From Gracilimonas sp. (GTDB taxonomy: Bacteria; Bacteroidota; Rhodothermia; Balneolales; Balneolaceae): 64,000 nt of DNA. The position numbers were made by a program, and so were the translations under genes. Of the stretch, positions 1 to 19,650 are shown one piece after another (the stretch's first letter is position 1; each line of letters begins with the position of its first letter). Below the pieces are notes generated by a model. It made no database searches, was not told the DNA's origin, and saw only the letters and a program-made list of their open reading frames with translations. The stretch is from positions 62,001 through 126,000 of the forward strand of contig JAKURD010000002.1 of the NCBI GenBank assembly GCA_022450045.1, in the 5' to 3' direction.

Positions 1-1115
1 GCAGAAGCCGCGCCGCCAACATTGGCCTGACTCCCAACCGCTACAAAGAAGAACGGAGCTTTAATGAATTTCCCAACCAGCAGCAGAATGGTTACGTGGA
101 TCAGGATCCATACGGCACCGATCACAAAATATCCAGGAGCATCGAGCATCGAGGCAATGTTCATTTTCATCCCGATGGTCATTACCAAAATATAGAGAAA
201 CAAGCTGCCGATCTTGGAAGCCCCGGCTCCCTCTAAATCACGGACTTTGGTAAAAGACAGGACAAGGCCACCGGTAGTGGCTACCACAATGATCCAAAAG
301 AAACTGGAATTCAAGCTGAGGTCAGCTAAAGCTGGAGCATTGGCATTAATCCAGGGAGCGATAGAATCGCCGGCAAGGTGGCCTAACGCTGTAAGTACGA
401 AAGCAACGGCCGCGATCTTGGTAAAATCAACAAGAGTAGGAACACGGGCTATATTAGACTGATAATCGGCGATTTTATTCTTTAATTCGGTAATAGCGGA
501 AGCATCGGCCTTGAACCAGGTATCTACTTTCTCAGAGATCCCCGCTCCATAAAGGAGAAAGGCCATCCAGATGTTGGCGACAATAATATCTACTGTGACC
601 ATCGCTCCAAACAGGTCAGTACTCGGTTCATAGATCTCAAGCATAGCAGTTTGATTCGCTCCTCCACCGATCCAGCTACCGGCAACCGTTGCGAGCCCGC
701 GCCAAACTTCATCTGGTCCGGTTCCACCAATGATCTCAGGATTTATGGTACCCACGATTAAAATGGCAATAGGGCCTCCCAACATAATGCTGAACGTTCC
801 AGCTAGGAACATAATGACGGCTTTTGGCCCAAGATTTAAAATTCCTTTCAGATCAATACTTAAGGTTAGCAATACCAAACTTGCAGGGAGTAAATATCGG
901 GAAGCGATGTAATACAAATTTGAATCCGCCTCCGACACAACTCCAAAAGTGGTCAATAAAGAAGGGAGGAAGTAGCACAATAGCAGTGAGGGTACAAATT
1001 TATAGAACTTTTGCCATTTAGGATTATCACTGTGTGAGGTAATAAAGATGCCCGCCAAAATAGCCATCAAAAGTCCAAAAGTAACCGCATCGCTTGTAAT
1101 CAGTGCTGAGTCCAT
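1..1115 (-). CDS. DUF819-type integral membrane protein (C-terminus cut by window edge)
   Basis: An open frame runs on the minus strand from an ATG at 1115 to the window edge without a stop, so the C-terminus is missing. The translation starts MDSALITSDAVTFGLLMAIL and is strongly hydrophobic, with repeated membrane segments and glycine-rich patches such as VAGSWIGGGANQTAM and, at the cut end, FFVAVGSQANVGGAASA. This pattern matches the DUF819 family of membrane proteins as I remember it. Members have no established substrate, though they are transporter-like. It is divergent from lysC, with about 230 bp between the two starts. The family call is from recognition of motifs, and no function is claimed. 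Confidence 0.75.
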   Translation of the reverse strand, partial: MDSALITSDAVTFGLLMAILAGIFITSHSDNPKWQKFYKFVPSLLLCYFLPSLLTTFGVVSEADSNLYYIASRYLLPASLVLLTLSIDLKGILNLGPKAVIMFLAGTFSIMLGGPIAILIVGTINPEIIGGTGPDEVWRGLATVAGSWIGGGANQTAMLEIYEPSTDLFGAMVTVDIIVANIWMAFLLYGAGISEKVDTWFKADASAITELKNKIADYQSNIARVPTLVDFTKIAAVAFVLTALGHLAGDSIAPWINANAPALADLSLNSSFFWIIVVATTGGLVLSFTKVRDLEGAGASKIGSLFLYILVMTIGMKMNIASMLDAPGYFVIGAVWILIHVTILLLVGKFIKAPFFFVAVGSQANVGGAAS

Positions 1116-1298
1116 GAAGTAGATTGAGTTCAATTTTCAAGTTCGAGTGAGAATACAAAATTCTGGGGAATGGGACAGTGTTGATTTTTTTGATTAGAAG
1201 ACTGATTCAGGTTTAAAGGCTCAAAACCGTAAATCATAAAAGATGTGAAAAATCATCTTGATAAAGTATTTAAATAAGGTATTGGGTGGATTAGTCTT

Positions 1299-1306
1299 TA
1301 TTTTTG
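1299..1306 (+). promoter_or_regulatory. possible -7 box of the lysC promoter
   Basis: TATTTTTG matches the TAnnTTTG -7 consensus known from Bacteroidota sigma factors and lies about 40 bp before the lysC ATG. No convincing -33 TTTG is seen at the expected 19-21 bp spacing. In AT-rich intergenic DNA this octamer can occur by chance. Confidence 0.22.
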
Positions 1307-1347
1307 GACTCGCTCATTTGATTTAACATTTAATCAGTTAGCAGTAC

Positions 1348-2676
1348 ATGATCGTATCAAAATTCGGAGGTACCAGTGTTGGAACATTGGAAGCCATGAA
1401 GCGCAGTGCCGACATCGTAGCGGCCGATGAAAACCGCAGGCTTATCGTAATAAGCGCAACGTCGGGAACCACAAATGATCTCGTGGCTCTTTCTGCGGCA
1501 ACTCTGGACTCTACCATGCGGGAAGAATTACTTGGGAATATCGAGAAAAGGCACCTTGAGATCATCGAACAATGTGTAAACAAGGAAAAACTCAGAGACG
1601 ATTTTTATACCCAGTTTTCAGCATTACGTGAGCACCTGGATTTTGTTGGACGTGATAAACGCTGGAAAGATCGGCTCTATTCGTTTGGGGAATTGATGTC
1701 CACCAAGATATTTGTGGAAGTCTTGAAAGAAAACGGTATAGATACCGAATGGCTGGATGCCCGTGAGGTTATGAAAACCGATTCTACTTTTGGGAACGCC
1801 GAGCCGATTTGGGAATCCATACAGAAGAAGGCCAAAAAGCATATTCAGCCCGGAAAGACATACCTGACCCAGGGATTTATCGGTTCGGATATCTTTGGAA
1901 ACACGACCACATTTGGACGTGGAGGAAGTGATTTTTCAGCCTCCCTATTTGCTGAAGCCGTTGGTGCCGATACCCTTGAGATCTGGACGGATGTTGCGGG
2001 TGTCTATACCACCGACCCAAGAATTGTACCGGATGCATTTCCGATCCACGAGATCTCTTTTGATGAAGCTGCCGAGCTTTCTGTTTTTGGGGGAAAGGTT
2101 CTGCATCCGGCAACGTTAAAACCTGCGATCCGAGGCGGAGTGAATGTTCGGGTGGCATCAAGCAGTGATCCTGAAAAGCCGGGTACGTTCATCGTAAAAG
2201 AAGCTGAGAAAAAGCCAGCGATCAGAGCTATTTCACTTCGCAAAGATCAAACGCTTCTTACTGTAAATAGCCTTGAGATGCTTCATCAGCATGGTTTTCT
2301 GGCTCATTTATTTAAGGTACTGGCAGAAAACAAGATCTCGGTTGACCTGGTAAGTACCAGTGAAGTAAGTGTAGCCCTTACTTTGGATACCGCTGTAAAT
2401 GCTGCCAATAAAGTAGAACTAACTGATAAAGTTCTCAAGGAATTAAGGCGATTTTCGGAAGTGGTGGTGGAAGAAGAACTTGCTTTGGTTGCACTGATCG
2501 GTAATAATATGCAGAAAACATCCGGGTTGGGTGGCCCGCTTTTTACTGCACTCGAGAAATATAATGTACGTTTAATCTGTCATGGAGCAAGCCCGAATAA
2601 CCTGTGTTTTCTGATAGATCATGAACAGGCTGAAGAAGTAGTTCGGATGTTACACAAGAAATTTATTACAGAATAG
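1348..2676 (+). CDS. lysC: aspartate kinase (monofunctional, LysC type)
   Basis: Phosphorylates L-aspartate, the first step to lysine, threonine and methionine. The 442-residue protein begins MIVSKFGGTSVG, the signature of the amino-acid kinase fold. It continues with the FGRGGSDFSASLFAEAVGAD and EIWTDVAGVYTTDPR blocks typical of aspartokinases. The region from about residue 300 to the end has the size and pattern of two ACT domains, the usual feedback site for lysine or threonine. It is monofunctional, with no homoserine dehydrogenase or DapG-like extension. It is followed after 12 bp by dapB and then dapA, so the three are likely one operon. The inhibitor cannot be told from sequence alone. 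Confidence 0.95.
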   Translation: MIVSKFGGTSVGTLEAMKRSADIVAADENRRLIVISATSGTTNDLVALSAATLDSTMREELLGNIEKRHLEIIEQCVNKEKLRDDFYTQFSALREHLDFVGRDKRWKDRLYSFGELMSTKIFVEVLKENGIDTEWLDAREVMKTDSTFGNAEPIWESIQKKAKKHIQPGKTYLTQGFIGSDIFGNTTTFGRGGSDFSASLFAEAVGADTLEIWTDVAGVYTTDPRIVPDAFPIHEISFDEAAELSVFGGKVLHPATLKPAIRGGVNVRVASSSDPEKPGTFIVKEAEKKPAIRAISLRKDQTLLTVNSLEMLHQHGFLAHLFKVLAENKISVDLVSTSEVSVALTLDTAVNAANKVELTDKVLKELRRFSEVVVEEELALVALIGNNMQKTSGLGGPLFTALEKYNVRLICHGASPNNLCFLIDHEQAEEVVRMLHKKFITE

Positions 2677-2688
2677 AAGAAGGAGACA

Positions 2689-3366
2689 ATGAAAATTTCA
2701 GTAATAGGAACGGGAAAAACAGGCGGAAAGGTTGTGGAGCTTTTAGGCGATGATCTTTTTGAAGCATTTGACAGAAGCAATCCTCCAACTGTGGAAAAAT
2801 TAAAAGAATCAGATGCTGTTATCATTTTTGTACCGGGTGATGCCGTTCCGGATATTCTTGATGAGGTTATTGAATCGGGAGTACCGGCAGCATGGGGTAC
2901 CACCGGATATAACTGGCCGGGAGAGCTTGAAAAACGGGTCAAAGCTAAAAATGCTAAATGGGTGTTAGCCTCTAACTTCAGTTTGGGAATGAACATCATC
3001 CGCAAGAGCATCGAAGCTATTTCAGCCGGATCATCTATTTTGGAAGACCCCAAGTTCCATATTCACGAAGTGCATCATGTCCATAAGAAAGATGCTCCAA
3101 GCGGTACGGCACTTTCATGGAAAGAGTGGCTGGATAAAAAAGCCGAAGTCACCTCAGCCCGCGAGGGGGATGTAAAAGGAATCCATGAATTGACCATGAA
3201 AACGGGCACAGAAGAGATCACCTTGAAGCACAAAGCCTTAGACCGGGCGCTGTTTGCTGAAGGAGCGATCTGGGCAGCGGAACAACTCATCAATAATTCG
3301 AAGATAGAAGCAGGAATTTGTACCTTTGGTCAGTTATTTGATCAAGTAATGGAGGAACAAGAGTAA
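2689..3366 (+). CDS. dapB: 4-hydroxy-tetrahydrodipicolinate reductase
   Basis: Second committed step to diaminopimelate: NAD(P)H-dependent reduction of the DapA product. A Rossmann nucleotide-binding motif GTGKTGGKV sits at residues 7-15. The DapB signature EVHHVHKKDAPSGT is at residues 127-140 and contains the catalytic His pair and Lys. At 225 residues it is shorter than the roughly 270 of Escherichia coli DapB; the N-terminal domain looks trimmed. It lies 12 bp after lysC, and its TAA stop overlaps the dapA ATG by one base (TAATG), which suggests translational coupling. Confidence 0.93.
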   Translation: MKISVIGTGKTGGKVVELLGDDLFEAFDRSNPPTVEKLKESDAVIIFVPGDAVPDILDEVIESGVPAAWGTTGYNWPGELEKRVKAKNAKWVLASNFSLGMNIIRKSIEAISAGSSILEDPKFHIHEVHHVHKKDAPSGTALSWKEWLDKKAEVTSAREGDVKGIHELTMKTGTEEITLKHKALDRALFAEGAIWAAEQLINNSKIEAGICTFGQLFDQVMEEQE

Positions 3367-4253
3367 TGGAAAAATTTCCACTTTGGACAGCAATGGTAAC
3401 CCCAATGAATACAGATGGGAGCGTTGATTACGAGAGCTTTGAAATGCTGCTCAGAAAACAGGAAGAAGCCGGAAACGGCGTGTTAGTATTGGGAAGTACC
3501 GGTGAGGGACTAAATTTAAATGAAGAAGAAAAACGAGAAGTAGTTGAGTTCTTCAATAGCTTGGATTTGGTCGTGCCTATGATGGTGGGTATCGGAGGAT
3601 TTAATCTCCCGGCCCAGGCCGATTTCATCCATTTTTGTAACGATATCAAACCTGATGCTTTATTATTGGTAACTCCTTTGTACGCCAAGCCTGGCGCTGA
3701 AGGTCAGTTCGAATGGTTTAGTGAATTGATGGGAGAGACAGAACTTCCCTGTATGCTATACAATGTACCATCCAGAACGGGGGTTAAAATGCATCCTTCT
3801 GTTCCTGCCCGATTAAGCAAGGAATTCGATCACCTGATGGGAGTGAAGGAAGCCAGCGGTAGTGTGGAGGAGTTCAAAGCTTTCAGAAGAGAAGCTCCGG
3901 ATGTAAAATTCTACAGCGGTGATGATGGATTAACTCCGGCTTTTGCCAAAGAGGGCGCGGTCGGGTTAGTTTCCGTAGCCTCAAATGTATGGCCTAACGC
4001 AACTCATAGATACACTGAAATGTGTATACAAGGGAATACAGATAACCTGTTTCCGCTTTGGAAAAATGCAACGGACGCTTTGTTTAAGGCTCCGAATCCG
4101 GTTCCTGCGAAAGTGTTGTTGAACCAAAAGGGATGGATTACAAATGATACGGTTCGGTTGCCGCTATCATTGGGAGATATTTCCGAAGAAGTAGAACAGG
4201 AACTCCTCAAAGCGGATAAAGAGATCAGCCGTTGGCTGGGAGATCAGCAATGA
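3366..4253 (+). CDS. dapA: 4-hydroxy-tetrahydrodipicolinate synthase
   Basis: Condenses pyruvate with aspartate semialdehyde. The 295-residue TIM-barrel protein has the GSTGE pyruvate-binding loop at residues 43-47, the catalytic Tyr132 in LYNVPSRTG, and the Schiff-base Lys161 in GVKEASG, at or within one residue of the E. coli numbering. It starts on the ATG that overlaps the dapB stop. The three-gene order lysC-dapB-dapA puts flux control and the first two lysine-branch steps in one transcript. Confidence 0.95.
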   Translation: MEKFPLWTAMVTPMNTDGSVDYESFEMLLRKQEEAGNGVLVLGSTGEGLNLNEEEKREVVEFFNSLDLVVPMMVGIGGFNLPAQADFIHFCNDIKPDALLLVTPLYAKPGAEGQFEWFSELMGETELPCMLYNVPSRTGVKMHPSVPARLSKEFDHLMGVKEASGSVEEFKAFRREAPDVKFYSGDDGLTPAFAKEGAVGLVSVASNVWPNATHRYTEMCIQGNTDNLFPLWKNATDALFKAPNPVPAKVLLNQKGWITNDTVRLPLSLGDISEEVEQELLKADKEISRWLGDQQ

Positions 4254-4261
4254 TTACCAGA

Positions 4262-4347
4262 AAGTCATCCTGATTGCGATCTATCGGAACGAAGGGTCTT
4301 TACATGTCTAAATTGTGTAGGTTCTTCGCTTTCGCTCGGAATGACTT
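4262..4347. repeat. small inverted-repeat element between dapA and dapD
   Basis: The gap between dapA and dapD holds an element bounded by AAGTCATCC (4262-4270) and its near-complement GGAATGACTT (4338-4347). Its interior includes TTCTTCGCTTTCGCTCGGAA. This layout resembles short intergenic repeats scattered through Bacteroidota-type genomes, but no second copy is present in the window. It could also form a hairpin in the dap transcript. Confidence 0.4.
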
Positions 4348-4390
4348 ATGAAGTGAGAACAAAAAGAAATTCAATAATTAAAAACTTAAA

Positions 4391-5137
4391 ATGAATTACG
4401 AAGAAGTTTTAGACCAATTAGAAGAAGGAACCCTGCGTGCCGCGAATAAGACAGAAAACGGCTGGGAAGCTAATATAGAAGTGAAGGAAGCGATCCTTTC
4501 TTCCTTTAAAGATGGCGAGAATACATCTTATGAAGGTATTTACAAGGGTTTTGTTGATAAGCACAATCTTCCACCCCGATTTTTTGCCCCTGAAGATGGT
4601 GTTAGATTGGTGCCCGGCGGTTCTTCCGTTCGAAGAGGAGCCTATGTTTCAGAAGGCGTGATCATCATGCCTCCGGCTTACATCAATGTCGGAGCTTATG
4701 TGGACGAAGGTTCTATGGTTGATAGTCACGCATTAGTTGGGTCCTGTGCTCAGATCGGGAAAAATGTGCATTTATCCGCAGGCGTTCAGATCGGTGGGGT
4801 ATTGGAGCCTGTTGGAATGAATCCGGTGATCATCGAAGATGATTGCTTTATCGGTGCCGGGGCGGTGATCGTAGAGGGAATTTTGGTGAAGAAGGGAGCG
4901 GTTATTGCTCCCGGTGTTACGCTTTCCAAAGCCGTGCCAGTTTATGATATAGTAAATGAGAAAATGCTGGATCGCGGTGCCGATATCCCTGAAAATGCAG
5001 TGGTAATCCCCGGAACCCGTCGTGTAAACAACGATTGGGCTAAAGAAAAAGGCTTAAGCATGGCGTGCCCTATTATAGTGAAGTACAGAGACGAAGGGAG
5101 TAATGCTTCTTTAGAATTAGAAAATGCACTTCGGTAG
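4391..5137 (+). CDS. dapD: 2,3,4,5-tetrahydropyridine-2,6-dicarboxylate N-succinyltransferase
   Basis: Transfers succinyl from succinyl-CoA to tetrahydrodipicolinate, which commits this organism to the succinylase route to diaminopimelate. The 248-residue protein has the Dap[17 protein letters not shown] block and a left-handed beta-helix hexapeptide run ([20 protein letters not shown], then [19 protein letters not shown]). It is somewhat shorter than E. coli DapD. It lies 137 bp downstream of dapA, with a repeat element in the gap, and probably shares its transcript. DapC and DapE are not in the window unless the ArgD-like aminotransferase at 8653-9831 serves as DapC. Confidence 0.93.
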
Positions 5138-5208
5138 ATAGTGTTTCGGCGTTTAAGTGTTAAGGTGCCTCCCGTTAATACGGTAACACCTTAACACGGT
5201 AACACTAT
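5138..5208. terminator. nested inverted repeats between convergent dapD and thrC
   Basis: Two nested inverted repeats fill the gap between the dapD and thrC stops. An 11-bp inner pair GTGTTAAGGTG (5157-5167) and CACCTTAACAC (5187-5197) lies inside an outer pair ATAGTGTT (5138-5145) and AACACTAT (5201-5208). The position between convergent genes suggests a bidirectional terminator. There is no strong T-run, so the mode is uncertain. Confidence 0.5.
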
Positions 5209-6914
5209 TATACCGCCAACGCCTTATTAGCTACGGCAAGTCCCTTCACAAAAGCTTGAATAACGGCTTCCAGCGTATCAGGGGAGGCTCCTTTGGATGT
5301 AAACTTATGTCCTTCTTTTTCCATGGTAAGTGTGACAACGACTAAAGAATCGGTATCCGGACTAAGAATTTCTACTTCGTGATTTGTTACTTCAAGGGGC
5401 AGGAATGAATCGGTCTCGGCTTTTATAGCTGTAAGTATAGCGTCAATAGGGCCAACGCCTTGGTCAAGTGAGATCACTTCATCACCACCATTTATCCGTA
5501 GTTTTACTGCGGCACTTACAAGGCCATGTTTACGCATGGTTAATTTATAATCAACTACTTCCACAGGATACTCAAGGTCAGCGTCTTCGTTATAAACGAG
5601 CGACCGAAGGACCTTTATCTCTTCTTCTTTTAAGGTTTTTCCTTTTCGGTTGATATTGTGAACATATTCATCATAAAGCTTGGTATGACCCTCATCCATA
5701 TTCACATTTTCAAATCCATTATTTCGGGATTGTCCCCAGCTGTTTTTCTGCATCTCTATGAAACCGGACTCGATGAATTGTTGAATGCGTTCCAGATTTG
5801 CTGGCAATACCGGAGAAGAAAGTGAATATTTTGCTACAATATGGGAACTTTTAAGTCCGGTTCCGGTAAGTACAAACAGGCATTTTTTGCCTTTGAAGGT
5901 ATCCAGGTTATTCTTGAATGTAGCTAAGGGAATGGCACAAGCCGGTTCCGTAAAATATCCTTCTTCCACCGTCATTTCCTTCATAGAATCAAGGAGTTCA
6001 TTTTCGGTAGCAGTGAAAGCAAGTCCATCCGTTTCTTCGATACCACGCAAAACTTTATAGAAATCCAAAGGGTCTCCAACGGCCACTGCATCAGCCATCG
6101 TGTTCACCTGATCCTTTACGATCTTATCTTTCTTAAAAATACCTTCTACAACCGGCGAACTTTGTTCGGGTTGAACGGCCACGAATTTAGGAATCTTATC
6201 TATCTGTCCGGCTGCTTTGAGTTCTTTATAGCCTTTATATATCGCAGCAAAATTAGTTCCTGCACCAATGGGTACGAAGATGTAGTCAAAGTCTGTCATT
6301 CCCTGATCATGCAGTTCGTAGGAGAATGATTTTTGCCCTTCTTGACGGAATACATAATCTCCGGCCAGGTAGTAATTCCCTGACTTGGCAAAATCCCTAC
6401 AAAGCTTTTCACAGATCATGAAATCCCCCTTGATCTTGATGATATTGGCATCATAGATGGTAGCCTGGGCAAGCTTCACTTCCGGAGTTTTCTCAGGCAC
6501 AAATACAAAACACGGGATCTTGAAATAGCAGGCATAAGCAGCCACAGATGCAGCCATATTTCCTGTTGAAGCCAGGCAAATGGCATCGGCTCCCAACTCC
6601 ATTGCTTTTTGCACCTCTATATAACTCCCACGATCCTTGAAGCAGCCGGTAGGGTGTTCAAACTCAAGCTTTCCATATAATTCAGCTTCATATTTTTCTG
6701 AAAGCCGGTTTAATCGCTTTAGCGGAGTGTAATTATTTTTAAGGGGATCTGGCAGAATTTCCTTAAGTGGGTACTGTATATTCTTTGCAGATTCGTTGTA
6801 CTCAATTTCCAGTACTCCCCCGCAGTTGGTACAGTACGTGCTGGTCTCTCTTTCGTCATTCTCCCGGCCGCACATGATGCAGCTCATTGTATATCCGGAA
6901 TTTGTTGCTTTCAT
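5208..6914 (-). CDS. thrC: threonine synthase fused to a LeuA-type allosteric domain
   Basis: Converts O-phosphohomoserine to threonine with PLP. The N-terminus has a zinc-ribbon pattern (Cys12, Cys15, Cys28, Cys31). The PLP lysine is Lys93 in HPTGCFKDRGS. The glycine loop (STGNMAAS) and the C-terminal LTGTGLK block close a normal catalytic domain at about residue 363. The remaining 200 residues are extra. After a helical linker, residues about 448-565 match the regulatory domain of 2-isopropylmalate/citramalate synthases, with GVGPIDAILTAI (486-497) and GASPDTLEAVIQAFVKGLAV (542-561). LeuA domains bind Leu or Ile. Because threonine is the precursor of isoleucine, the fusion suggests branched-chain feedback on this step, which is an inference. 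The gene is convergent with dapD. Confidence 0.9.
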   Translation of the reverse strand: MKATNSGYTMSCIMCGRENDERETSTYCTNCGGVLEIEYNESAKNIQYPLKEILPDPLKNNYTPLKRLNRLSEKYEAELYGKLEFEHPTGCFKDRGSYIEVQKAMELGADAICLASTGNMAASVAAYACYFKIPCFVFVPEKTPEVKLAQATIYDANIIKIKGDFMICEKLCRDFAKSGNYYLAGDYVFRQEGQKSFSYELHDQGMTDFDYIFVPIGAGTNFAAIYKGYKELKAAGQIDKIPKFVAVQPEQSSPVVEGIFKKDKIVKDQVNTMADAVAVGDPLDFYKVLRGIEETDGLAFTATENELLDSMKEMTVEEGYFTEPACAIPLATFKNNLDTFKGKKCLFVLTGTGLKSSHIVAKYSLSSPVLPANLERIQQFIESGFIEMQKNSWGQSRNNGFENVNMDEGHTKLYDEYVHNINRKGKTLKEEEIKVLRSLVYNEDADLEYPVEVVDYKLTMRKHGLVSAAVKLRINGGDEVISLDQGVGPIDAILTAIKAETDSFLPLEVTNHEVEILSPDTDSLVVVTLTMEKEGHKFTSKGASPDTLEAVIQAFVKGLAVANKALAV

Positions 6915-6973
6915 TAGAAAATAGGGTTGGTATTCACTCAGATTGTATAAACTGAAGGTATCAAAAAATTAAG

Positions 6974-6989
6974 AAAAAAGCGCTTTTTT
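6974..6989. repeat. perfect 16-bp palindrome AAAAAAGCGCTTTTTT
   Basis: A perfect loopless palindrome sits in the 86-bp gap between the hypothetical gene at 7001-7246 and thrC. A hairpin with no loop is poor, so it is more likely a protein-binding site or a chance A/T-tract structure than a Rho-independent terminator. Confidence 0.35.
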
Positions 6990-7000
6990 AGCTCATCTGA

Positions 7001-7246
7001 TTACAATGGAAGAATAACGATCTCTTCAAAATCGAGATCTAATTCTGATAATATGGGAGCCGCAATTTCTTCGATCTCCTCTTCGCTGTAGTCGTTTAGA
7101 CCTTCCAGTTTTACATACAGGATCTCATTTTGCTCATCTATGAAAAACCGGGCTTCATCTGATTCAAAAGATTCTTTCAATGTGTTAACCAAAAATTCCA
7201 CATCTTCGATAAACGCCTTAATTTCGTCTTCGGTAGGTTCGCTCAT
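7001..7246 (-). CDS. small acidic hypothetical protein
   Basis: This 81-residue, very acidic protein begins MSEPTEDEIKAFIEDVEFLV. It has no signal peptide, Cys pair or membrane segment. The middle (FFIDEQNEILYVKLEGLNDY) looks like two beta strands followed by an acidic helix, so a small alpha/beta fold is plausible. I do not recognise the family. It lies upstream of thrC on the same strand (86 bp gap) and is divergent from anmK with only 38 bp between the starts, so the two promoters must overlap. Codon use and position support a real gene. Confidence 0.65.
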   Translation of the reverse strand: MSEPTEDEIKAFIEDVEFLVNTLKESFESDEARFFIDEQNEILYVKLEGLNDYSEEEIEEIAAPILSELDLDFEEIVILPL

Positions 7247-7284
7247 TTTGTGTAGGTTCTTACTTAAATGTTAAGCTTGAAACT

Positions 7285-8463
7285 ATGAATAAATACATAG
7301 CAAAACTGAGTGAAATTTCTGAGAAACCGGAACGAATTATTTTAGGGCTGATGTCAGGAACGTCGCTTGATGGACTTGATATAGCATTATGTAAAGTATC
7401 GGGTACAGGCCGGGCCACTAATATCGAAGTAATTAGGTTCACGACCGTTGAATATGATTCGGAATTGAGAGGCATGCTCGCATCCATACAATCAAAAGAT
7501 AAGGTTGATACTCGGTTACTTACTTATTTACATTCTGAATTAGGGAATCTGTATGGGGACTGGATATTGGCTGTTTTGGGTGAATGGGGAATCAATAGTG
7601 AAGACATTGATCTGATCGCCAGCCACGGGCAGACTGTTTATCACGCACCGGCTGAAAATGAAGGCAGCCTGAATGCAACTTTTCAAATAGTGGATGGAGA
7701 TCATATTGCCCAAAAAACAGGCTTCATCACTATATCAGATTTTCGACAAAAACATACGGCGATTGGGGGGCAAGGGGCTCCGCTCGCCGGAATATTTGAT
7801 AAAGTCCTGTTTCGATCGGACTCCCAAAACCGGATGCTGTTAAACCTGGGAGGTATTGCAAATTTCACCTGGCTGCCGCCGATTGATAGTGGAGGTCAGG
7901 TTATTACAGCTGATACCGGTCCGGCCAACACACTCATCAACGAAGCCATGCAGAAGTATTTTGAACGGCCTTATGATGAAGGTGGAAATACGGCATCCAG
8001 GGCGGCGGTTCACTCCGAATTGGTTCGATACGTGCTGCTTGAGCCCTACTTCCGCAAACCCTTTCCCAAAACAACAGGGCAGGAAGATTTTCGGCTGGCC
8101 TACATTGAAGAATTAATGCAGGGACATCAAATTGAATTAACCCCGGAAGATCTGGTGGCGTCTCTGACAGCCATCACTTCACAAAGTATTAGAAGAGCGG
8201 TAGATGAAGTTGCCGGAGATCAGGAATTCGAGTGTTATGTAAGCGGCGGCGGAGTCCATAACAAAACCCTGATGGAAGACCTGCGAAAAAGAATACCTCA
8301 GGCTGCGTTCCGAGCCTTTGAAGAATTGGGTATTCCGGCGGATGCCAAAGAAGCAAGCATGATGGCCTTTTTTGCCAACGAATTAATAGCAGGAGAAGGA
8401 TTTCCAATTCCTGCGGTTACGGAAGAGAACGTGCATTTGGGGAAGATCAGTTTACCGGGTTAA
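7285..8463 (+). CDS. anmK: anhydro-N-acetylmuramic acid kinase
   Basis: Phosphorylates and opens 1,6-anhydroMurNAc released by lytic transglycosylases, giving MurNAc-6-phosphate for wall recycling. The 392-residue protein has the ASKHA ATP-binding start GLMSGTSLDGLDIALCKV, then IASHGQTVYHAP, LNLGGIANFTW, TADTGPANTLIN and the C-terminal YVSGGGVHNKTLM. All are typical of AnmK. It starts 38 bp from a divergent small gene. Its recycling role fits MltD (34082) and the amino-sugar genes near 60 kb. Confidence 0.93.
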   Translation: MNKYIAKLSEISEKPERIILGLMSGTSLDGLDIALCKVSGTGRATNIEVIRFTTVEYDSELRGMLASIQSKDKVDTRLLTYLHSELGNLYGDWILAVLGEWGINSEDIDLIASHGQTVYHAPAENEGSLNATFQIVDGDHIAQKTGFITISDFRQKHTAIGGQGAPLAGIFDKVLFRSDSQNRMLLNLGGIANFTWLPPIDSGGQVITADTGPANTLINEAMQKYFERPYDEGGNTASRAAVHSELVRYVLLEPYFRKPFPKTTGQEDFRLAYIEELMQGHQIELTPEDLVASLTAITSQSIRRAVDEVAGDQEFECYVSGGGVHNKTLMEDLRKRIPQAAFRAFEELGIPADAKEASMMAFFANELIAGEGFPIPAVTEENVHLGKISLPG

Positions 8464-8652
8464 GTAATTAAAAATTAAAGATTCAAAATGAAGAATTGGG
8501 ATTTTGGACCTTGAATAGTTTTCTCGGATGAAATCACAGCACATTACACCTATCACAGTTTGAACCACCCCGAGAAATCGGTGCAGGATGGAAGGATTAA
8601 CATGATTATTTGATCAGTGGTCATCTGCAACACCCGTGTCATCCGCGTTCCA

Positions 8653-9831
8653 TTATGCTGTCTGATCCAAGGATAAGACCAACACCTCAACCATCCGTTC
8701 AATCTGTTCAATGGTGATGACAAGGGGAGGTAGAAATCTTACTACCGTTCCATGAGCGGCGTTTCCAAGTACACTATGCTCAAACATTTTGTCAACCACA
8801 GGTCGTGCAGGGCGATTTAGTTCAACCCCGATCATCAGACCAAGTCCGCGTATGTCTTTTACCGATGGGTTTTCTGATAAATTTTCTTTCAGAAGATTCA
8901 TCATAAAAGCGCCTTTTTCTTGGGCCTGCTCTACGAGGTGTTCTTCTTCAATGGCATCCAGTGCGGCGTTGGCTACATGCGTTGTGAAGGGATTCCCACC
9001 AAAAGTGGTTCCATGATCGCCGAAACCAAAAGCTGAGGCCACTTCTTCTTTTACCATAATGGCACCAATAGGAACACCTCCGGCAAGTGCTTTTGCGGAA
9101 GCCACGATATCAGGCATTACATCAAAGTGCTGGTACGCATAGAACTTCCCGGAGCGGCCAACCCCACACTGCACTTCATCTATGATCATCAGGATATTTA
9201 AGTCATCACACAGCTGGCGCGTTTTCTGCATAAATTCCGCATCAATCATATTCACCCCTCCGGAGCCTTGGATGGTTTCAAAGGCAATGGCGATCGTATC
9301 TTCATCGGCTGCGGCTTTCAGTGCTTCAAAATCGTTAAAAGGCACTTGCTCAAATCCGGGAGGAAGTGGATCGAAACCTTCTGCATAGCTGGGCATGCCC
9401 ATCGTGATCGTAGCAACAGATCTTCCATGAAAGCCTTCACTAAGTGTGATCAAATTTCCGGACTTACCATGTTTTTTGCCCCACTTTCGAGCCAGTTTCA
9501 CACAGGCTTCCATTGCCTCCACACCGCTGTTGCAGAAGAAGACGCGATCCAATCCTGAAACTTTGGCCAGTTTTTCGGCAAGCAAACTCTGTGGTTCATT
9601 ATAAAAGAAATTTGAGGCATGCAGCAGCTTTTCCGATTGCTCTTTGATAGCGGCTACGACCTTAGGGTGACAATGGCCGAGATTATTTACCGCCAGTCCT
9701 CCAAAGGCATCCAGATATTCATTGCCCTCCGTATCCCAAACCAGTGCGCCCTTACCGTGAGATAAAGTTACCGGCAGGCGGTTATATACCTGGAAGTGAT
9801 ACTGTTTTTCAAGTCGCTGTGCTTTGTCCAT
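8653..9831 (-). CDS. argD: class III aminotransferase, acetylornithine aminotransferase-like (ArgD family)
   Basis: PLP-dependent aminotransferase of subgroup III. The 392-residue protein has the family blocks NSGVEAMEACVKLARKW (101-117), the PLP Asp in MIIDEVQCGVGRSG, and the Schiff-base Lys247 in SAKALAGGVPIGA. Size and motifs fit ArgD, which also acts as N-succinyl-diaminopimelate aminotransferase (DapC) in several bacteria. That second role would complete the dap set nearby, but it is inference. No arginine gene is adjacent, and a second class III enzyme lies at 27891-29069. The 189-bp gap to anmK holds no gene. Confidence 0.8.
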   Translation of the reverse strand: MDKAQRLEKQYHFQVYNRLPVTLSHGKGALVWDTEGNEYLDAFGGLAVNNLGHCHPKVVAAIKEQSEKLLHASNFFYNEPQSLLAEKLAKVSGLDRVFFCNSGVEAMEACVKLARKWGKKHGKSGNLITLSEGFHGRSVATITMGMPSYAEGFDPLPPGFEQVPFNDFEALKAAADEDTIAIAFETIQGSGGVNMIDAEFMQKTRQLCDDLNILMIIDEVQCGVGRSGKFYAYQHFDVMPDIVASAKALAGGVPIGAIMVKEEVASAFGFGDHGTTFGGNPFTTHVANAALDAIEEEHLVEQAQEKGAFMMNLLKENLSENPSVKDIRGLGLMIGVELNRPARPVVDKMFEHSVLGNAAHGTVVRFLPPLVITIEQIERMVEVLVLSLDQTA

Positions 9832-10005
9832 TTTCGTGATTCGTTTTTTTATGTTATTCGTTAATCGTAATCCGTAATTACCGAAAAAGCCTCAAACATC
9901 AATTTAATTTGCAATTAATAATCTCTTTTGAAGTTTTCACACAGCCTGTCAGGTTTGGTAACGCAGTCCCGGCAGCTTCGGATTCCCGTTAACTTGAAGA
10001 CAGAA

Positions 10006-10953
10006 TCACTTTTTAGCCCGCTCTTCCTTTTCTTTCAGAATATAATTTACGTACAAAAACTCCAGGGCTGCGGCTTCATAGCCTTTCCATTTTTGGATGA
10101 GTTCCTGAAATCGTTCTTCGGAGGTATTGTGAGGATCTTCTCCGTAGCTGTAGATGATCCACCGGCGCAGTCCTTTTTCTTCATCGCCTTTTTTGTTTGA
10201 GGGAAAAACCGCATCGGTTCGCCCTCTCATCATCATAAGATCCTGACCCGAAGTGGGACCAATACCTTTTACTTTTGTGATTAGGTCGTAAAATTCCTGT
10301 GGCTCACATTCCATCAGGTGATCCATATCCACATTACCCGCTACGATGTCGTTGGCTAACCCCACCAAATATTGTCCCTTACGAAGGGTAGGACCAAGTT
10401 TTCGGATGTTGGCCGGATCAGCCTTCATCAGCTGGTGGGGGCGTGGCCAGGCCGGGAGAGACCTTTTCCCAAGCATTAACGCTGTTCCATAGGCCTCCCG
10501 GATCTGGAACATCATCTTCTTGGCGGTTGGCTTGTGGTTCATCTGCATCTGCACAATTCGATAGAGGATATCTTCAAAAAGGTTAGCGCGAGTCATGCGC
10601 TTTAACCCATAGAGCTCACTCAGTTTGCCTCCTAAAACAGCATCATTCTCGGCTTGGTCATAAAGCGGACGAATATCCATATCCGTACCCAAGATCTTAG
10701 CCAGGCTTTTGTTGGCCTCTGTAACTTCATCTTTGGACAGGGATTCGGCAGATTCTATATGAAATTCGGGGTTTTCCGGGTCACCATTGAAAAAGACGGT
10801 CACGATCACATCGGTATCGCCAACGGGTATTGGGCGGGTGAATCCTTCCTCAAAAACTTTCTCCGGCTCATGTTCGTGATCAAAATAGGATTCAACATCC
10901 AGGCAGAGAAACCAGTCGTGCGGAGGTATGGATTTTACAGTCCAGGAACTCAT
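10006..10953 (-). CDS. AlkA-like HhH-GPD DNA glycosylase with altered catalytic loop
   Basis: The 315-residue protein has the layout of 3-methyladenine DNA glycosylase II. There is an N-terminal TBP-like half, then a helical HhH-GPD half with a hairpin motif VKGIGPTSGQDLMMMRG at residues 228-244. In AlkA-type enzymes this is followed by an FPxDD segment carrying the catalytic Asp, then GLRR. Here the equivalent reads VFPSNKKGDEEKGLRRW (249-265): GLRR is kept, but the Asp pair is replaced and a few residues are inserted, leaving Glu/Asp only in DEE. Base-excision activity is therefore uncertain. It is the first gene upstream of argD on the same strand and probably follows the OstA-like gene. 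Confidence 0.7.
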   Translation of the reverse strand: MSSWTVKSIPPHDWFLCLDVESYFDHEHEPEKVFEEGFTRPIPVGDTDVIVTVFFNGDPENPEFHIESAESLSKDEVTEANKSLAKILGTDMDIRPLYDQAENDAVLGGKLSELYGLKRMTRANLFEDILYRIVQMQMNHKPTAKKMMFQIREAYGTALMLGKRSLPAWPRPHQLMKADPANIRKLGPTLRKGQYLVGLANDIVAGNVDMDHLMECEPQEFYDLITKVKGIGPTSGQDLMMMRGRTDAVFPSNKKGDEEKGLRRWIIYSYGEDPHNTSEERFQELIQKWKGYEAAALEFLYVNYILKEKEERAKK

Positions 10954-10970
10954 AGGCTTGGAATTAAGAA

Positions 10971-12383
10971 TTAGTTGTCAGGTACATTTTGTAGCAGGTG
11001 CTCAAGGTATCGCATCGGTAATGTGAACGGCCGTTCTGTTGGAACCGGTGGGAATCGTGGTTCAGCGATAGTATCAGGCCGGCTGGGGCGCAGTTCGGGA
11101 TTCCACTTAAACCCTTCCAGTCTCCGCTCCGCCAATCCCGAAAATTCCTCAAAAAAGTATCCGTCATTTTTACCTGCAACCACACGCTGCAGTTCACCAT
11201 TCCTGAAATACATGACTGTTTGAGGAGAGGTGTATTCTACAGCTCCATCGGGCTGACCCTGTTCATTTGTAGTATGGTAAAGGACCTGACTGTTGGGATA
11301 TATTTTGAGCCTCGAAATGTCGCCTTCCTCAAAATCAGCGATCAGTGTATCTCCCTTTATCTGATGAAGCCTGCCGGTGGTACTGTCTTCCTGAACAGTG
11401 ATGGTATTATGGTAGGTTTTCAGCTGGCGGACTTCATTGCTATCCATCTGCACGCTGATATAGGGACCGTTAAGCTGTATATTATTATGCCAGGCAATAG
11501 GATTGGAAATAAGTTCAAAGATCTCTGTGGAGGAATCGTAAAGGAGGGTGTCAGAGATGGAAGAAAAATCGCTGGACCATACGCGGACGTTGCCATAGGA
11601 GCGCACCAGGTCGACAGAATCCTGCTCGATCAAAAGCAGCTCATCTGAATTGATATGCGTGGTATCGGTGGTATCTGCACTGATCTTACGGAAATAGGAA
11701 TTCCCATCCACAAAGCGCCTTCCGGTTGAATCGGCTTGAAGGTAATCTCCGGTGAGTAAACCATTGTTGCTGCTGTCTGCCACAAAGATATTGCTGAAAA
11801 GCTCCAGGTATTCAGATTTACGGTTTATAAATAAACTGTCGCCTTCCGCATATTGAGCGGTATCAGCGAGTTGCACGTTCCCTTTGAAAATGGCGCTATC
11901 CTGGTTTTGGTAATAAGTCCCTTTCTTTGCGATCAGAGTACCGCCTTCATCTTCGAGACGAATGCCATCTTCAAAAAAAGCGACCTTGGTGAAGAAATTA
12001 TAGTCCACTTTTTCACCAAACAGGGTGGTGCTGTCTTGTTCAATGATCACCCTTCCGCGGAGTAAACTCAATTCCTGGTCCGTATAATAATAAAGGGTAT
12101 CACTCCATATGATCTCATCCGGAGTTTCAATTTCGATGTTTCCATAGGCTCTCAACTCATTTCGGTCCAAAAACTGCCAGGCACTGTCACTAACCATTTC
12201 AATATTCCCTGTTTTCAGGCGTACATCGTACATCTTCCGGATCGGCTCACCGTTCTGAGTAATATTTGTAACCTCTCTGGCGCGCTGAATTTCCACCAAA
12301 TTTTGAGCATAGGAAGAAAACGGGATCAAAACTGACATGATAACCGTAAAAAGCAAGGGGAGTATGAAGTGCCTGTCTCTCAA
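10971..12383 (-). CDS. OstA/LptA-like LPS-transport periplasmic protein
   Basis: The 470-residue protein has a signal peptide (MRDRHFILPLLFTVIMSVLI, cleaved near SSYAQ) and then beta-rich repeats of the OstA type, such as LRAYGNIEIETPDEIIWSDT and IFKGNVQLADTAQYAEGD. These repeats form the beta-jellyroll of LptA/LptD-N proteins that carry lipopolysaccharide across the periplasm. It is much longer than E. coli LptA, as usual for Bacteroidota-type OstA-like proteins. Its ATG overlaps the lptC stop by 4 nt, supporting a shared LPS-export role. Confidence 0.85.
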   Translation of the reverse strand: MRDRHFILPLLFTVIMSVLIPFSSYAQNLVEIQRAREVTNITQNGEPIRKMYDVRLKTGNIEMVSDSAWQFLDRNELRAYGNIEIETPDEIIWSDTLYYYTDQELSLLRGRVIIEQDSTTLFGEKVDYNFFTKVAFFEDGIRLEDEGGTLIAKKGTYYQNQDSAIFKGNVQLADTAQYAEGDSLFINRKSEYLELFSNIFVADSSNNGLLTGDYLQADSTGRRFVDGNSYFRKISADTTDTTHINSDELLLIEQDSVDLVRSYGNVRVWSSDFSSISDTLLYDSSTEIFELISNPIAWHNNIQLNGPYISVQMDSNEVRQLKTYHNTITVQEDSTTGRLHQIKGDTLIADFEEGDISRLKIYPNSQVLYHTTNEQGQPDGAVEYTSPQTVMYFRNGELQRVVAGKNDGYFFEEFSGLAERRLEGFKWNPELRPSRPDTIAEPRFPPVPTERPFTLPMRYLEHLLQNVPDN

Positions 12384-18954: not shown

Positions 18955-19650
18955 ATGGACAATATTTTTTATACACACCCCAACAATATCTCCGAAGGCC
19001 GGTTAGAGCTTACCGATCAGGAAGCCCGCCATGCCGCTAAGGTGCTTCGGTTTGGACCGGGAGATGAACTCTATGCTTCGGATGGAGAAGGAAATATCTT
19101 CAAGACTAAGGTTATATCTGCTTCAAAAAACTCAGTTCAGACAGAGATCGAAGAAACGGATCATCAATCCGAACCCGAGATCAGGAAAGTACTTGGGTTC
19201 GGGGCTATCAAAAAAAGAGACCGTTTTGAATTTGCCGTTGAAAAAGCGGTAGAACTGGGGGCATGGGAGATCTGTATTTTCACCGGCGATCATTCAGAGC
19301 GCTCAAAGATAAATCAGGACCGGCTCCGGTCTATCGCGCTCAGTGCCTTCAAGCAAAGTAAAAGAAGGTGGCTGCCTGAAATTATATTTTTGAACGCTCT
19401 TGAAGAAGTTATGAGTCACTATGATGGATATCACCTGATCATGGCTCATGTTGAAAATAGAGTGAATACACCAGATTCACTTACGAATAAAGAGAACTTA
19501 TTACTGGTTGGGCCGGAAGGTGGATTTTCGGATCGTGAAATTCAGCTTTGCGCATCAAAAGATGCTGATTTCATCTCTCTTGGTAAGAATCGTTTGCGAG
19601 CCGAAACGGCTGTTGCTGCCATACTTTCTCAGTATCTTTTTTCAAAGTGA
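18955..19650 (+). CDS. rsmE: 16S rRNA (uracil-1498-N3)-methyltransferase
   Basis: Methylates U1498 of 16S rRNA using SAM. The 231-residue protein has the RsmE/SPOUT pattern: DQEARHAAKVLRFGPGDELY at the N-terminal PUA-like part, then EFAVEKAVELGAWEICIF, LLLVGPEGGFSDREIQLC and ISLGKNRLRAETAVAAILSQ, the knot and SAM site. Length and motifs are standard. It is followed by a terminator and is transcribed alone or with the dcd-BFD pair. Confidence 0.94.
   Translation: MDNIFYTHPNNISEGRLELTDQEARHAAKVLRFGPGDELYASDGEGNIFKTKVISASKNSVQTEIEETDHQSEPEIRKVLGFGAIKKRDRFEFAVEKAVELGAWEICIFTGDHSERSKINQDRLRSIALSAFKQSKRRWLPEIIFLNALEEVMSHYDGYHLIMAHVENRVNTPDSLTNKENLLLVGPEGGFSDREIQLCASKDADFISLGKNRLRAETAVAAILSQYLFSK

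Follow-up and report, generated by a model that had tools for sequence, protein, structure and literature searches.

A gene for a protein of 568 residues in the genome of a Gracilimonas sp. (assembly GCA_022450045.1) joins a catalytic domain of the threonine synthase family to a regulatory domain of the LeuA type, and this domain fusion was confirmed as real and conserved. The gene occupies positions 5208 to 6914, on the minus strand, of a 64,000-nucleotide stretch of contig JAKURD010000002.1 (positions 62,001 to 126,000), hereafter called the window. The fusion probably does not serve as the cell's threonine synthase, and its present name is probably mistaken, although the source databases label the fusion proteins as such or merely as pyridoxal 5'-phosphate (PLP) dependent enzymes. 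The reading we tentatively favour, in which we infer both substrate and effector, is that of a threonine or serine deaminase built on a threonine-synthase scaffold, whose activity a branched-chain amino acid, in all likelihood isoleucine, would control. It is possible, though less probable, that the fusions evolved separately into a class of threonine deaminase gated by isoleucine, with a stripped phosphate site and a citramalate-synthase-type isoleucine sensor, confined to the order Balneolales and filed in databases as threonine synthase. As far as searches of the open-licence PubMed Central literature reach, the fusion is undescribed: neither a threonine synthase combined with a LeuA-type domain nor a paper mentioning PF08502 or LeuA_dimer was found there, and a preliminary description of the window had likewise named no characterised example.

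The open reading frame stands as first described, with the addition of its strand; it opens with an ATG at 6914, ends with a stop at 5208 and contains no internal stops. Its features are as follows.

5208..6914, minus strand: fusion gene, 568 residues, threonine-synthase-family PLP domain plus LeuA_dimer regulatory domain (open reading frame and Pfam)
6789..6887, minus strand: N-terminal cysteine-rich segment, residues 10-42, zinc-ribbon-like, with Cys12, Cys28 and Cys31 invariant in 56 fusion rows
5862..6731, minus strand: catalytic PLP domain (PALP, PF00291), residues 62-351 (Pfam, E 6.5e-61)
6636..6638, minus strand: Lys93 of the PTGCFKDRG motif, predicted to bind PLP, invariant and at the position of Lys61 in the Thermus threonine synthase (alignment)
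6555..6557, minus strand: Met120, where threonine synthase has a substrate-site Thr (alignment), invariant in 56 of 56 fusions
6357..6362, minus strand: Gly185-Asp186, where threonine synthase has Asn-Ser (alignment), invariant in 56 fusions
5610..5825, minus strand: linker, residues 364-435, predicted helices (structure models)
5238..5609, minus strand: LeuA_dimer (PF08502) regulatory domain, residues 436-559 (Pfam, E 3.9e-17; score 62.8 bits, curated cut-off 24.9)
5448..5459, minus strand: Gly486-Val487-Gly488-Pro489, signature of the regulatory domain (conservation among fusions)
5379..5381, minus strand: His512, invariant, at the position of the pocket Tyr in LeuA and citramalate synthase (alignment)

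The regulatory domain had been recognised from two signature blocks, and both are present (GVGPIDAILTAI at residues 486-497 and GASPDTLEAVIQAF at residues 542-555); the Pfam search bore out the assignment to PF08502. Both PALP and LeuA_dimer were carried by 120 of 120 relatives listed out of 692 protein matches. Across the order, the catalytic and C-terminal matches fell within one open frame in 52 genomes and LeuA_dimer scored above its cut-off in 51 of these; in the remaining one (G077) just 95 of the 206 C-terminal residues were matched. Three further genomes (G105, G106 and G122) show a single half of the fusion, each at the start of a contig. Because the relatives listed all carry both domains and the frame is single in 52 genomes, a spurious join can be dismissed. 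Misassembly or a frameshift that merged two adjacent genes was thus ruled out by the recurrence of the one-frame fusion across genomes and protein clusters, and such an artefact is given practically no weight. The N-terminal segment reached 17.8 bits against Pfam PF08271, under the cut-off of 29. A match to the NCBIfam model leuA_bact begins at residue 407, inside the linker, the later part of which may derive from LeuA subdomain II.

The preliminary description regarded residues 1-363 as a complete threonine synthase, which held for fold and lineage and not for the active site. The catalytic part is a PLP fold type II domain with the PT-x-x-FKDRG lysine motif, and it scored 165.7 against the thrC model TIGR00260, just under the cut-off of 167.1, while a distant fusion (L099) reached 176.6. 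In the Thermus enzyme, Lys61, Thr88, Asn154, Ser155, Arg160 and Asn188 are the residues that we take to hold the phosphate of O-phosphohomoserine. Alignment to solved threonine synthases indicated that four of these six positions are replaced in the fusion, namely by Met120, Gly185, Asp186 and Ala218 or Cys218. ThrC of Thermus, Bacillus, Aquifex and Mycobacterium (fold type II) shares the fold, the lineage, the PLP lysine motif, Arg190 and the TGxGLK motif with the fusion; the latter differs in its altered substrate-phosphate site, its zinc-ribbon-like N-terminus and its C-terminal LeuA-type domain, and is kept in genomes without ThrB. Since the phosphate-site residues are replaced and invariant in the replaced form, and since the fusion is kept without ThrB and ThrC, the catalytic domain likely does not use O-phosphohomoserine.

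The occurrence of the threonine pathway bears on the earlier proposal that a branched-chain amino acid, by acting on ThrC, would set flux at the threonine branch, that is, on the fusion as a second, branched-chain-amino-acid-controlled threonine synthase using O-phosphohomoserine. The window's genome (G000) has a thrA-thrB-thrC operon with an ordinary ThrC (289.1 bits against the cut-off of 167.1), and ordinary ThrC was found in 40 of 55 fusion genomes. In 14 of the 55, nine of which are at least 95% complete, neither ThrB nor ThrC was matched (homoserine kinases of other families were not sought), yet the fusion is kept, and it is thus retained where its supposed substrate could not be made by the known route. 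Homoserine dehydrogenase, sought in 20 chosen genomes, was present in 18 and missing in two (G089 and G090; 1.5 Mb, about 90% complete), both among the 14. Had the fusion replaced ThrC, genomes with ThrB but without ThrC would be expected; G077 is the sole such fusion genome, and its ThrB match, counted as present, is cut short (residues 2-214 of 310). The 73 non-fusion genomes, which gauge missed or lost members of the pair, included three with ThrB and no ThrC and three with the reverse. Together with the replaced and conserved phosphate site, these observations make a second threonine synthase unlikely, and the proposed control of the threonine branch was not upheld. Absence here means no match at 1e-20 for ThrC, 1e-8 for ThrB, 1e-30 for LeuA and 1e-60 for IlvA, and the fusion occurs in genomes without matches to ThrB, ThrC, LeuA or IlvA. 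The co-occurrence lists were compiled by hand; those for ThrC, ThrB, LeuA and IlvA equal the search tallies in size, while those for the fusion and CimA have no such tally.

An enzyme of about 400 residues resembling PRK08197 threonine synthase was observed in four genomes (loci L113, L114, L115 and L116) in which neither ThrB nor ThrC of the E. coli type was matched. The L113 enzyme, the only one scored, reached 510.5 bits against a cut-off of 303, and the other three group with it in the tree. At L113 and L115 the enzyme, possibly catabolic, adjoins a LysR-like regulator, as named from its sequence.

In the favoured deaminase, a catalytic domain that has lost its grip on the phosphate of O-phosphohomoserine would use the same PLP to remove water from threonine or serine by beta-elimination, yielding 2-oxobutyrate or pyruvate. 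For the threonine synthases of Thermus and Microcystis, deamination of threonine is reported as a second activity (PMC12172450), so that an enzyme without the phosphate site would still be capable of beta-elimination. The C-terminal domain would pair with that of a second subunit and bind a branched-chain amino acid in a pocket with isoleucine-type walls and His for the usual Tyr, and the signal would be relayed to the catalytic domain via the helical linker. The logic would be that of classical feedback on threonine deaminase, for which isoleucine is the classical inhibitor (PMC12172450; also textbook), assembled from parts other than IlvA.

The structural prediction suggested at the outset agrees with the assignment of the regulatory domain. 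In a full model of the fusion the C-terminal part has the strand-and-helix order of the regulatory fold, and the domain was also modelled separately because the structure list of the full model was filled by catalytic-domain rows; modelled alone, its top structure matches were LeuA and citramalate synthase. A single-sequence search with the C-terminal 156 residues against PDB sequences gave no match at E 1, and with a profile built from 18 fusions 3f6g was matched at 6e-4. For the effector pocket of Leptospira citramalate synthase (3f6g, 3f6h) we assumed eight residues, all of which agree in their letters with the solved chain. By alignment to this enzyme, the catalytic part of which is a triose-phosphate isomerase (TIM) barrel, the fusions retain the hydrophobic wall, Asp431 is kept in five of six fusions, Tyr454 has become the invariant His512 and Gln495 is replaced by Thr, Ile or Val. 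Two pocket-wall positions resemble the isoleucine-binding rather than the leucine-binding type. They set the fusions apart from 2-isopropylmalate synthase LeuA (Mycobacterium, 3fig): both are Ile/Val in the fusions, whereas the G107 LeuA has Ser and Gly there.

Feedback on LeuA is covered in PMC10464499. The single LeuA of G000 has 385 residues and ends before the regulatory domain (L018:2351-3508, contig C56), and the sole LeuA_dimer match in that genome is the fusion. This would suit a supply of the regulatory domain in trans to the cell's own LeuA, but LeuA went unmatched in 20 of the 55 fusion genomes, and in two genera with short LeuA (g19 and g21; 7 of 9 and 1 of 1 genomes) there are no LeuA_dimer matches. 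Trans-regulation was accordingly rejected on account of the fusion genomes without LeuA, and is considered very improbable. The short LeuA of G000 may mean that feedback has been lost or that control is exerted in some other way. A relative of it in G107 (L122:5210-6697, 61% identity) has the leucine-sensing domain.

Isoleucine synthesis was further compared across fusion genomes. Three of them (G006, G026 and G107) keep LeuA together with ilvDBNC and have neither an IlvA nor a CimA match. Within the leu / ilv-thr cluster of G006 the gap between the ilvC and thrA matches is only about 60 bases (L165, about 19026-19089). Five relatives (G001, G002, G004, G005 and G007) have ilvA there by coordinates, and G006 has apparently undergone a clean loss of the gene.

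Several observations weigh against the deaminase. The IlvA threshold is strict, and other deaminases may exist in G006, G026 and G107; G026 is moreover without thrABC and may simply import isoleucine. IlvA is also present in 18 of the 55 fusion genomes, G000 included, which would make a second threonine deaminase partly redundant, and nine non-fusion genomes with IlvA manage without the fusion. The lack of LeuA in the 20 genomes implies that feedback from the cell's own leucine synthesis cannot be the general role. With an invariant His in the place of the pocket Tyr, the effector may be another molecule. Finally, sequence and tree place the catalytic domain in the threonine-synthase lineage and not with IlvA or TdcB: it scored 103.7 against the IlvA model NF006390 (cut-off 421), and IlvA stood outside the fusion group on a long branch, in a tree that likewise has long branches for CysM and the BhcB-like enzyme and from which own ThrC was omitted as too divergent. 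IlvA has a C-terminal regulatory part and is subject to isoleucine feedback. IlvA and TdcB share the fold and the predicted reaction with the fusion and differ in lineage and in regulatory domain family. A different reaction on the same fold, such as a beta- or gamma-replacement (e.g. cysteate synthase or a threonine synthase using O-acyl-homoserine) controlled by the LeuA-type domain, has also to be weighed, and we regard it as doubtful.

In the searches made, the fusion was observed only within Balneolales. When 244 genomes of the class were searched with the C-terminal 206 residues, 54 contained the fusion type, at 37 to 100% identity and all in this order; 39 others gave weak matches only (22 to 32% identity), for the most part in frames as long as LeuA or CimA. 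Inclusion of G122, seen via the catalytic part only, brings the total to 55 of 128 order genomes. A scan of named species genomes with two family-typical peptide patterns returned 41 loci, 36 close and 5 distant (24 to 33% identity); as the patterns were built on fusion-typical peptides, distant fusions elsewhere would escape it. The titles of the 36 close loci read Gracilimonas, Balneola, Fodinibius, Aliifodinibius, Balneolales or are those of loosely labelled bins, and the organism names among the 120 relatives listed of 692 are Gracilimonas, Balneola, Balneolaceae or Bacteroidota. No fusion outside Balneolales was found by the searches of class genomes, of proteins (120 listed of 692 matches) and of species genomes (two-pattern scan).

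Among the 30 rows compared in the tree, an unfused archaeal family marked by STGNM and GDY motifs is the sister group of the fusions (support 97/95). Its members, from Micrarchaeota and others, are often annotated threonine synthase, carry PF00291 only, without a LeuA domain, and are mostly 345-355 residues long; of 120 relatives listed, 119 have STGNM and 102 have GDY or GDF, the other 18 being unmatched by the search pattern. On a Micrarchaeota contig (L160, 395-6504) the unfused enzyme lies among genes resembling, by names given from sequence, citrate synthase, aconitase and isocitrate or isopropylmalate dehydrogenase. The Balneolales family named threonine synthase, and perhaps the archaeal sister family too, likely does something else, which matters for genome-based prediction of auxotrophy.

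To our knowledge the allosteric threonine synthase of plants has no LeuA-type domain. Its effector in Arabidopsis is S-adenosylmethionine (PMC9081730). This review of PLP-enzyme allostery covers that control and the CBS regulatory module, and its main text does not mention isopropylmalate or LeuA. If the proposed function is true, the LeuA-type sensor would be a portable module able to control a fold type II PLP enzyme, and another regulatory add-on for this fold beside the two covered there (PMC9081730).

The fusion gene stands tail to tail with a plus-strand row of lysine genes, lysC-dapB-dapA-dapD (1348-5137). Rfam gave no match in positions 1-12000 of the window. Directly upstream of the fusion is a short frame:

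7001..7246, minus strand: orphan open reading frame of 81 residues, acidic, no Pfam match above cut-off

This frame, likely co-transcribed with the fusion, lies next to it at 29 of the 31 loci inspected, 26 of them recognised by open reading frame calling and 3 more by tblastn; the exceptions are L087, at a contig end, and L101. It is present in 109 of 128 order genomes, many of them without the fusion, and was for that reason dropped as functional evidence of a dedicated partner; it represents a conserved family.
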